From assembly GCF_014859565.1 (NCBI RefSeq), contig NZ_JACUUA010000163.1, forward strand, positions 1 through 7,421: a stretch of 7,421 nt of DNA. Reading direction: 5' to 3'. Numbering within the stretch: position 1 is the stretch's first letter; each line of letters opens with the position of its first letter. The position numbers and the translations under genes are program-made. A model generated the notes under the pieces. The model was not told the DNA's origin and ran no database searches. It saw nothing but the letters and a program-made list of their open reading frames with translations. The stretch is from Marinospirillum sp. GTDB taxonomy: Bacteria > Pseudomonadota > Gammaproteobacteria > Pseudomonadales > Halomonadaceae. Shown in pieces: positions 16 through 7,416 of the stretch.

Positions 16-65
16 GCAGAAAAACGTCTGCCTTCATGAACCAAGTGTCCTTTCGTAGGGGACAC
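16..65 (+). promoter_or_regulatory. thrS mRNA leader, probable ThrRS-binding translational operator
   Basis: Two hairpins lie just upstream of thrS. The downstream one (45-65) pairs GTGTCC (45-50) with GGACAC (60-65) plus a T51-G59 wobble, leaving a 7-base loop TTCGTAG (52-58). Read as an anticodon loop this gives U33, anticodon CGU (34-36) and A37, the features of a threonine tRNA. The upstream one (16-31) pairs GCAG with CTGC, and CGT again lies at 25-27 in or at the edge of the loop. A single-stranded link of 13 bases joins them. In E. coli the thrS operator has this design, with two tRNA-like arms bound by the ThrRS dimer, which blocks 30S binding. The Shine-Dalgarno AGGAA (74-78) begins 9 bases after the second hairpin. 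The structure is read from sequence; ThrRS binding is inferred from the E. coli system. Confidence 0.75.
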
Positions 66-84
66 CACTGCTCAGGAACTTATC

Positions 85-1980
85 ATGCCCGTAATTACCC
101 TTCCCGATGGCAGCCAGCGTCAGTTTGAGCAGGCCGTCAGCGTTTTTCAGGTCGCCGAATCCATTGGTGCCGGTCTAGCCAAAGCCGCTCTTGCAGGCAA
201 GGTTAATGGTGAGCTGGTTGATACCAGCCATCTGCTCAGTGAAGACAGCCAGCTATCAATCATCACTGCCAAAGATGCTGGCGGCGTGGAAGTGCTGCGC
301 CATTCCTGTGCCCACCTGATGGCCATGGCTGTAAAACAGCTGTTCCCCAAGGCTCAGGTCACTATCGGCCCAACCATTGAAGATGGCTTTTTTTATGACT
401 TCGACATCGACGGCACATTTACGCCGGAAGACCTGCAAGCCATTGAAAAGCGCATGGAAGAACTGGCAAAACAAGATATTCCTGTTGAGCGCTTCCTGCT
501 GTCACGGAATGAAGCGGTTGCCTTTTTTGAGCAGCAGGGTGAAATCTACAAAGCTGAAATCATCCGTGATATCCCAGCGCATGAAGAATTATCCCTCTAC
601 CGCCAGGGTGAGTTCACCGATTTATGCCGTGGCCCGCATGTTCCCAGCACCGGCAAGCTAAAAGCCTTCAAACTGATGCGTGTTTCCGGTGCCTACTGGC
701 GCGGTGACTCCAAAAACAAGATGCTGCAACGCATCTACGGCACTTGCTGGGCCGATAAAAAAGACCTCAAGGAATACCTGCACCGCCTCGAAGAAGCCGA
801 AAAGCGGGATCACCGCAAACTAGCCAAACGTATGGATTTGTTCCACATCCAAGACGAAGCACCAGGCATGGTATTTTGGCACGCCAATGGCTGGACACTG
901 TATCAGGCACTGGAAACCTACATGCGCGGCGTGCTGCGCAACAATGGTTACCAAGAGGTCAAAACACCTCAGGTTGTAGACAAGGTCTTGTGGGAGCGCT
1001 CGGGTCACTGGGAGCATTACCAGGCCAATATGTTCACCACGGTATCCGAACACCGTGATTACGCCATCAAGCCAATGAACTGCCCCTGCCACCTGCAGAT
1101 TTTTAATCAGGGACTGAAAAGTTACCGTGATCTACCACTGCGTATGGCCGAGTTTGGTTCTTGCCATCGTAACGAACCTTCCGGTTCATTACATGGTTTG
1201 ATGCGGGTTCGTGGTTTCACTCAGGATGATGCCCACATCTTCTGTACGGATGACCAGATGGAAGAAGAATCTGCCCGTTTTATTCAGTTGACGCTGGATG
1301 TTTACAAGGCCTTTGGTTTTAACGATGTTGAGCTCAAGCTCTCCACCCGTCCGGAAAGCCGCATTGGTGATGACGCCCTGTGGGACAAGGCTGAACACGC
1401 GCTGGAACACGCACTCAACAAAATTGGTAAAACCTGGGATCTACAGCCAGGTGAAGGTGCATTTTACGGCCCGAAAATTGAGTTCTCCCTGCGCGACTGC
1501 CTTGGTCGTGTCTGGCAGTGTGGCACCTTGCAGCTGGATTTTGTATTGCCAAGCCGTTTGAATGCCCATTATATTGCTGAAGATGGCAGTCGTAAGACAC
1601 CTGTGATGCTGCATCGTGCTATTCTGGGGTCCTTCGAGCGTTTTATCGGCATTCTGATCGAACATTATGCCGGTGACCTTCCGACCTGGTTGTGCCCGAT
1701 TCAGGCAGTGGTACTGAATATCACTGACAAACAGGGCGAATATGCCCGAGATTTGAAAGAAAAACTGCATCAAGCCGGTGTTCGTATCGAAACTGACTTG
1801 AGAAATGAGAAGATAGGCTTTAAAATCCGCGAGCACACTCTAGCCAAGATTCCTTATCTGCTGGTTGTTGGTGATAAAGAAGTGGAGTCCGGTACAGTGT
1901 CTGTTCGTACTCGTCATGGCGAAGACCTTGGTTCAATGGATCTGGAAACTGTTAAAGCCAGATTACTGGAGCGACACTGA
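85..1980 (+). CDS. thrS: Threonyl-tRNA synthetase (ThrRS)
   Basis: This cytoplasmic class II aminoacyl-tRNA synthetase attaches threonine to tRNA-Thr and edits mischarged Ser-tRNA-Thr. The protein has 631 residues (E. coli 642). Domains in order are TGS (about 1-62), the editing/SAD domain (about 63-225) with HxxxH at His73/His77 and the Cys181-x3-His185 pair, the catalytic core (about 240-530) and the C-terminal anticodon-binding domain (about 535-631). The zinc ligands that select threonine are present as Cys333 (in MNCPCH), His384 (in DDAHIF) and His510 (in [13 protein letters not shown]), one less than E. coli numbering. Motif 2 (HRNEPSG) and motif 3 (GSFERF, Arg519) are complete. The ATG start has AGGAA six bases upstream and gives a normal TGS N terminus. 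The leader carries a tRNA-Thr-like operator, so translation is probably autorepressed by free ThrRS. infC follows after 53 bases. Confidence 0.98.
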
Positions 1981-3293: not shown

Positions 3294-3324
3294 AGGGGAA
3301 GGGCTGCGCTCTTCCCCTTTTTTT
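3294..3324 (+). terminator. Intrinsic terminator between rplT and pheS
   Basis: AGGGGAAG (3294-3301) pairs perfectly with CTTCCCCT (3311-3318). The stem can continue inward through a G-T pair and two G-C pairs to a TGC loop. Seven T follow (3318-3324). It lies 29 bases after the rplT stop and 43 bases before the pheS ATG, the same place as the E. coli pheST attenuator. Unlike that system, no phenylalanine-rich leader peptide precedes it. Confidence 0.9.
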
Positions 3325-7339: not shown

Positions 7340-7416
7340 CGGAGTGTGGCGCAGCCTGGTAGCGCACTTGCATGGGGTGCAAGGGGTCGCAGGTTCGAAT
7401 CCTGTCACTCCGACCA
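7340..7416 (+). tRNA. tRNA-Pro, anticodon GGG
   Basis: A complete 77-base cloverleaf with encoded CCA. The acceptor stem CGGAGTG (7340-7346) pairs with CACTCCG (7406-7412), followed by discriminator A7413 and CCA 7414-7416. The D stem is GCGC/GCGC (7349-7352, 7362-7365). The anticodon stem CTTGC/GCAAG (7367-7371, 7379-7383) closes the loop ATGGGGT, so the anticodon at 7374-7376 is GGG, reading CCC and CCU. The T arm is at 7389-7405 with loop TTCGAAT. The C1-G72 pair, A73 and G35/G36 fit bacterial proline identity. A dedicated promoter lies upstream. A proline tRNA near ihfA is also found in pseudomonads. Confidence 0.97.

Follow-up and report, generated by a model that had tools for sequence, protein, structure and literature searches.

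Whether the leader of thrS in Marinospirillum sp. imitates the anticodon arm of a threonine tRNA, and would thereby place the gene under the control of its own product, threonyl-tRNA synthetase (ThrRS), is the question raised by the beginning of the window, i.e., the whole stretch of 7,421 nucleotides that was analysed. In Escherichia coli, as described in passages of PMC7373986 and PMC9976931, ThrRS binds two anticodon-like hairpins located upstream of the Shine-Dalgarno sequence (SD) and blocks the 30S subunit, a block also reported in an excerpt of PMC3858243, and this control matches the level of ThrRS to that of tRNA-Thr. The same parts of PMC9976931 and PMC7373986 bear out what the original prediction had stated, namely that E. 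coli thrS is regulated through an arm carrying CGU and that changing the operator triplet to that of methionine moves the control to MetRS; they cite for the operator the work of Moine, Springer, Romby, Torres-Larios and co-workers, and the G and U identity residues of tRNA-Thr are mentioned in PMC7373986.

The enzyme encoded in the window retains all four domains according to Pfam (TGS, SAD, core and HGTP_anticodon), shares 92% identity with the ThrS of Marinospirillum alkaliphilum and is identical to E. coli ThrRS at 394 of 642 positions, with 61 identical positions out of 108 in the anticodon-binding domain. Downstream of thrS come infC, rpmI, rplT, pheS, pheT, an IHF/HU-type gene (at the ihfA position) and a tRNA gene; this is the order known from gammaproteobacteria, and in E. 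coli the order is thrS-infC-rpmI-rplT-pheM-pheS. Some features of this downstream region can be recorded on their own. The infC gene (2034-2576) has no ATG near the N-terminus and its frame opens at an AUC at 2034, with an SD-like GGAG at 2022-2025 and the nearest in-frame stop upstream at 1989, which we take to be the rare-start arrangement known for infC. Between rplT and pheS, where E. coli has pheM, a terminator-like hairpin followed by a U tract lies at 3294-3318, and no Phe-rich leader peptide was noticed there by eye. The tRNA gene occupies 7340-7413, with an anticodon read by eye as GGG, i.e., tRNA-Pro. The features of the thrS leader are as follows.

16..31, + strand: upstream hairpin GCAGA/UCUGC, predicted in folds, without a 7-base U33-NGU loop
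42..44, + strand: 5' side of the element base, where C42 and A43 face G70 and U69, and A44 is unpaired (counts over 155 elements)
45..65, + strand: anticodon-arm mimic with a 7-bp stem, 45-51/59-65 (direct reading; shuffles; conservation and covariation among related thrS leaders)
52..58, + strand: 7-base loop UUCGUAG, equivalent to tRNA positions 32-38 (direct reading)
66..70, + strand: 3' side CACUG, with CAC (66-68) as internal loop and U69 and G70 facing A43 and C42 (counts over 155 elements)
74..77, + strand: Shine-Dalgarno-like AGGA, 8 bases past the arm and 7 bases ahead of the start codon (direct reading)
85..1980, + strand: thrS, threonyl-tRNA synthetase with TGS, SAD, catalytic and anticodon-binding domains (Pfam)

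Direct reading of the leader confirms the arm as originally predicted: six Watson-Crick pairs (G45-C65, U46-A64, G47-C63, U48-A62, C49-G61 and C50-G60) and one wobble pair (U51-G59) close a loop which, in tRNA numbering, reads U32 U33 C34 G35 U36 A37 G38, that is U33, the anticodon CGU and A37. The CGU (positions 34-36) sits at 54-56 of the window, i.e., at -31 to -29 relative to A85, the first base of the thrS ATG, and close to the SD, again as claimed. The limits of 45-65 given by the prediction hold for the arm; the conserved element is larger and includes a basal CA/UG and the CAC internal loop, so that in the window it spans 42-70, with a C-C mismatch at 41/71 in place of the basal pair -4/+6 (positions being counted outwards from the stem).

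Set beside the operator of E. coli K-12 MG1655 (domain 2 or hairpin H2), GUGAUCU-UUCGUGU-GGGUCAC-CACUG at -42, the window leader reads GUGUCCU-UUCGUAG-GGGACAC-CACUG at -40. Both have the position ahead of the SD, the 7-bp stem, the 7-base loop with CGU, the A at -2 and the CACUG 3' of the stem, and both stand before a gene for a cognate ThrRS with all its domains. The asymmetric internal loop, with A(-2) facing a 3' strand that reads CACUG, probably corresponds to what has been published as the "characteristic motif" of the E. coli operator. The stem letters differ in a paired fashion, with U48-A62 in the window against A-U in E. coli, and base 37 is A in the former and G in the latter. Unlike in E. 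coli, the basal pair -4/+6 is broken, no second arm is recognisable in the 44 bases available upstream, and a competing fold is predicted.

The conservation of the element was assessed in related thrS leaders, the nearest of which belong to genes whose ThrS is at most about 73% identical to that of the window and none of which comes from Marinospirillum; draws of 390 and 116 genomes yielded no ThrS as close as one from Marinospirillum would be, and a draw of 385 genomes, largely repeating the first, was blank and uninformative. In a test blind to both stem and loop, 107 distinct leaders (loci found by protein, plus E. coli and the window) were anchored on the motif CCRCU. Among 59 anchors near the start codon, 45 are preceded by seven stem pairs, 12 by six, one by five and one by two, whereas 960 anchors elsewhere in the same loci gave one case with seven pairs and 13 with six; at least six of seven pairs are thus formed at 57/59 anchors near the start against 14/960 elsewhere. 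All 57 of these arms have an NGU loop, with CGU in 29, GGU in 25, AGU in two and UGU in one; an extra anchor in locus L029, with five pairs, has the triplet AGG and not NGU. The other 49 leaders lack the CCRCU anchor, and some of them have altered arms and many have none.

The arm is not found everywhere. The 80 thrS loci obtained from one protein scan comprise 38 with a canonical arm, three with an altered arm (L024, L039 and L065), five of a Methylophaga type and 34 with none recognised by eye, many of the latter being leaders of Methylococcales and Thioploca, in which no arm was seen in the set. Because of these 34 loci, the control must be called far from universal even within this class. 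Searches for close ThrS returned 40 loci (some from the same genome), 32 of which carry the arm according to the filter; among the other eight, inspection by eye shows no arm in L228 and, in the remaining seven, an altered arm that keeps NGU.

To describe the element as a whole, 220 loci or records were kept and reduced to 155 distinct 29-mers by a filter that demanded five or more of the seven pairs, a loop containing GU and a C[AGT]CU 3' of the stem, and which excludes other variants. In these elements, located at -33 to -55 from the start codon, the triplet is CGU in 86, GGU in 53, AGU in eight and UGU in eight, the GU being required by the filter; at base 33, U occurs 136 times, G 11 times, A seven times and C once; base 37 is a purine throughout (131 A, 24 G). 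Stem pairs 2-6 are formed in 147 to 155 of the 155 elements, a set preselected for at least five of seven pairs, and covary beyond all 2000 column shuffles, with exchanges such as U-A/C-G, G-C/C-G/A-U and C-G/U-A/G-C. Pair 1 never varies, and covariation support for pair 7 (31-39) had to be rejected, this pair being often open and formed in 114/155 elements against 113.2 expected. The original prediction had called for a test of compensatory changes in the stem around an invariant CGU: the compensatory changes are there in pairs 2-6, whereas the invariance of CGU is rejected, since four NGU triplets occur in the loop-blind set as well as in the 155 elements and only the GU (35-36) is fixed.

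Outside the stem, C is found at -3 in 138/155 elements, A at -2 in 154/155, A at +2 in 144/155 and G at +5 in 144/155, while the filter itself imposes C at +1 and +3 as well as U at +4. A(-2) faces U(+4) in 154/155. The basal pair -3/+5 (C-G or equivalents) is formed in 143/155 and is conserved, not covarying (214/2000 shuffles reach the observed value), and the basal pair -4/+6 is formed in 101/155, above all 2000 shuffles. From the conservation of these basal pairs and of the loop, the element can be described as an arm standing on an internal loop (one base facing CAC) and, below this, a short basal helix.

A covariance model was built from 33 distinct elements, i.e., 44 arm rows from which three that were not arms and eight duplicates had been removed. 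Of the five covariation measures run on these 33 sequences, two are weak, namely the pairs changed on both sides (three; reached by 15/500 shuffles) and the further pair types (nine; reached by 175/500); by contrast, 95.2% of the cells are paired and the covariation score is 0.339 against 0.212 in shuffled alignments, neither value being reached in 500 shuffles. Searched over 23 genomes at E<=1, the model gave matches of 35.2 bits or more (35 to 46) in 16, the next best reaching 21.6 bits; the score of the altered L024 arm is too low to set it apart. At E<=1e-3, matches were found in 88 of 274 genomes of the class to which the genome of L008 belongs and in 64 of 398 genomes of its phylum, exactly one in each genome, these two draws sharing some genomes and stricter filters being in force. 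All 148 matching loci that were opened (87/87 and 61/61, the latter being L169-L198 and L239-L269, with some genomes repeated) are situated upstream of thrS. A similar CACUG-motif filter is passed by 87/87 loci found by the model, which itself favours the motif.

The mechanism that these leaders suggest is the one known from E. coli. Element 42-70 of the thrS mRNA would act as an operator for the very enzyme it encodes: its loop would imitate the anticodon loop of tRNA-Thr, such that spare ThrRS, i.e., ThrRS without tRNA-Thr, could bind it through the anticodon-binding domain and read G35 and U36. The bound enzyme would cover the adjacent SD and keep off the 30S subunit, with less translation of thrS as the outcome, and an abundance of tRNA-Thr relative to ThrRS would leave the operator free. 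Threonine identity depends mainly on G35 and U36, as read by ThrRS, and a free base 34 next to fixed bases 35-36 fits an enzyme of this kind. We consider it highly probable that the element works as a translational operator bound by ThrRS, of the type found before E. coli thrS. The anatomy and position of the element, the compensatory changes that accompany its conservation, the threonine-type triplets to which its loop is limited and the restriction of the model matches at E<=1e-3 to sites before thrS are matters of observation; binding by ThrRS, competition with the ribosome and feedback would follow in this lineage by analogy with E. coli. As for the claim of the original prediction that the mechanism reaches this lineage, sequence comparison speaks for it, many related leaders having the arm, comparably far from the start codon, with compensatory changes and a threonine-type anticodon, and E. 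coli having the same element.

Other explanations of the arm have to be weighed against this operator. Luck could in principle have produced it in a single leader, in about 2 cases in 10,000: among 100,000 dinucleotide shuffles of 1-84, 20 yielded a fully paired 7-bp arm with at least six Watson-Crick pairs and a NUNGUNN loop, and in the whole window such arms occur once on the + strand (45-65) and once on the - strand, inside pheT. A chance resemblance in one genome, already refuted by the recurrence of this element in the corresponding position of many related leaders and by their compensatory changes, is hardly worth retaining. It is also quite improbable, if less extremely so, that a conserved leader hairpin acts without ThrRS, for stability or as a ribosome standby, its likeness to an anticodon arm being incidental. 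The stem does adjoin the SD, as such a role would have it; a stability hairpin nevertheless leaves unexplained why a 7-base loop should carry NGU, with the four threonine anticodons, in 57/57 loop-blind arms, and parts of PMC9976931, PMC3858243 and PMC7373986 report that the element is bound by ThrRS in E. coli.

Somewhat less probable still than a ThrRS-independent hairpin is a two-state switch, in which the arm would expose the SD and an alternative fold would pair 48-51 with the SD and 35-39 with 83-87. The best predicted fold of the window RNA including the start codon does just this, with the arm broken and an arm-pair probability of about 0.01-0.03, and, as soon as the chain contains base 87, is predicted to be more stable than the arm fold by about 5 kcal/mol. 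The isolated 21-mer, on the other hand, adopts the arm as its predicted fold (z -3.38), two extra pairs being predicted within the loop, and in RNA chains ending at 66 to 84 the arm is predicted to be dominant (0.79-0.99). In the leaders of the 155 elements, 24 of which are predicted to lean towards a downstream pairing of the 5' strand of the arm, this pairing has a mean probability of 0.14 against 0.16 with the tail shuffled, while that of the arm has a mean of 0.66 (0.61 with the tail shuffled) and is at least 0.5 in 108/155; in E. coli the arm is favoured, with a predicted 0.97. A conserved switch sequestering the SD was therefore rejected, its frequency not exceeding that of leaders with shuffled tails, and since the alternative fold is not conserved and the arm is predicted to dominate while the chain grows to 84, the fold of the window is treated as a local oddity.

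Besides the canonical form of the element, altered versions exist. In L024 (Marinobacterium marinum) and in L200, L207, L209, L211 and L217, the latter five from genomes that share a family with L008, a longer basal helix extends the stem and the CACU internal loop has disappeared, whereas the CGU loop is kept. Leaders of the Methylophaga type (L007, L013, L014, L043 and L048) follow the pattern GGCC-9-GGCC, with an arm of about four pairs and the NGU loop kept. Regarding the second arm, L031 exhibits two canonical arms in tandem at 1919-1984, 37 bases apart, with GGU at -80 and AGU at -43. A scan for upstream U33 arms, which misses both the second arm of E. coli and that of L031, found 47 in 23,391 bases of the 155 leaders, with NGU in 12/155 leaders, an apparent excess over even triplet use; the same scan found no U33-NGU arm upstream in the window. 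The predicted hairpin at 16..31 may possibly be the counterpart of the upstream arm of the E. coli operator, though this is unproven. Further upstream in other genomes, a tRNA-Val(GAC) gene was observed about 60-130 bases ahead of thrS in six of 11 loci checked (L002, L003, L004, L005, L061 and L079), with, by eye, a terminator-like hairpin and a U tract between this gene and the arm or start in several loci. With the tRNA gene just upstream and the terminator-like hairpin in between, thrS may be read through from the tRNA-Val(GAC) gene.

Taken more widely, it is conceivable, though we lean slightly against it, that the thrS operator constitutes an uncatalogued gammaproteobacterial RNA family, mainly bound to one fixed feature, a 7-base loop carrying a threonine-type GU. 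Base 34 would drift over four anticodons, some lineages would have rebuilt the rest while still under ThrRS control (a longer helix for the CACU loop in L024, L211 and L217; about four pairs in Methylophaga relatives), and the window would represent a single-arm version. In Rfam 15, no family was found over 1-84 of the window up to E 5, nor over the thrS leaders of L001, L031, L036 and L069, the E. coli leader being among those tested, up to E 1. Two matches were set aside as noise, i.e., CRISPR-DR36 at 2617-2645 (20.7 bits against a cut-off of 38) and sR7 (16.8 against 37). A comparative study of this thrS leader was not among the matches listed from the open-licence literature, as judged by titles and the opening lines of abstracts; Torres-Larios et al. 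(2002) reportedly already state in their abstract that a subset of Gram-negative bacteria shares the mechanism.

The element in the window is a well-conserved further example of a known control, not a new kind. With it, molecular mimicry of which E. coli offers the textbook case is extended to a Marinospirillum-like bacterium, in the relatives of which nature provides a mutation series: a free first and fixed second and third anticodon bases are the expected evolutionary outcome if ThrRS recognises the loop in the way it recognises tRNA-Thr, and lineages with altered or missing operators make the needed parts testable. T-box leaders likewise couple synthetase genes to tRNA, by binding uncharged tRNA through codon-anticodon pairing. 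In the thrS leader, by contrast, the mRNA itself carries the anticodon, and Rfam gave no T-box match over the leader of the window or that of E. coli. Also comparable are the eukaryotic anticodon-mimic mRNAs of the HisRS/ThrRS type in yeast, where the synthetase binds the mRNA through a mimic of the anticodon loop. The same likeness holds for yeast AspRS, also eukaryotic, for which part of PMC9976931 describes an mRNA operator bound by the synthetase via an anticodon-loop mimic, as proposed here for thrS.
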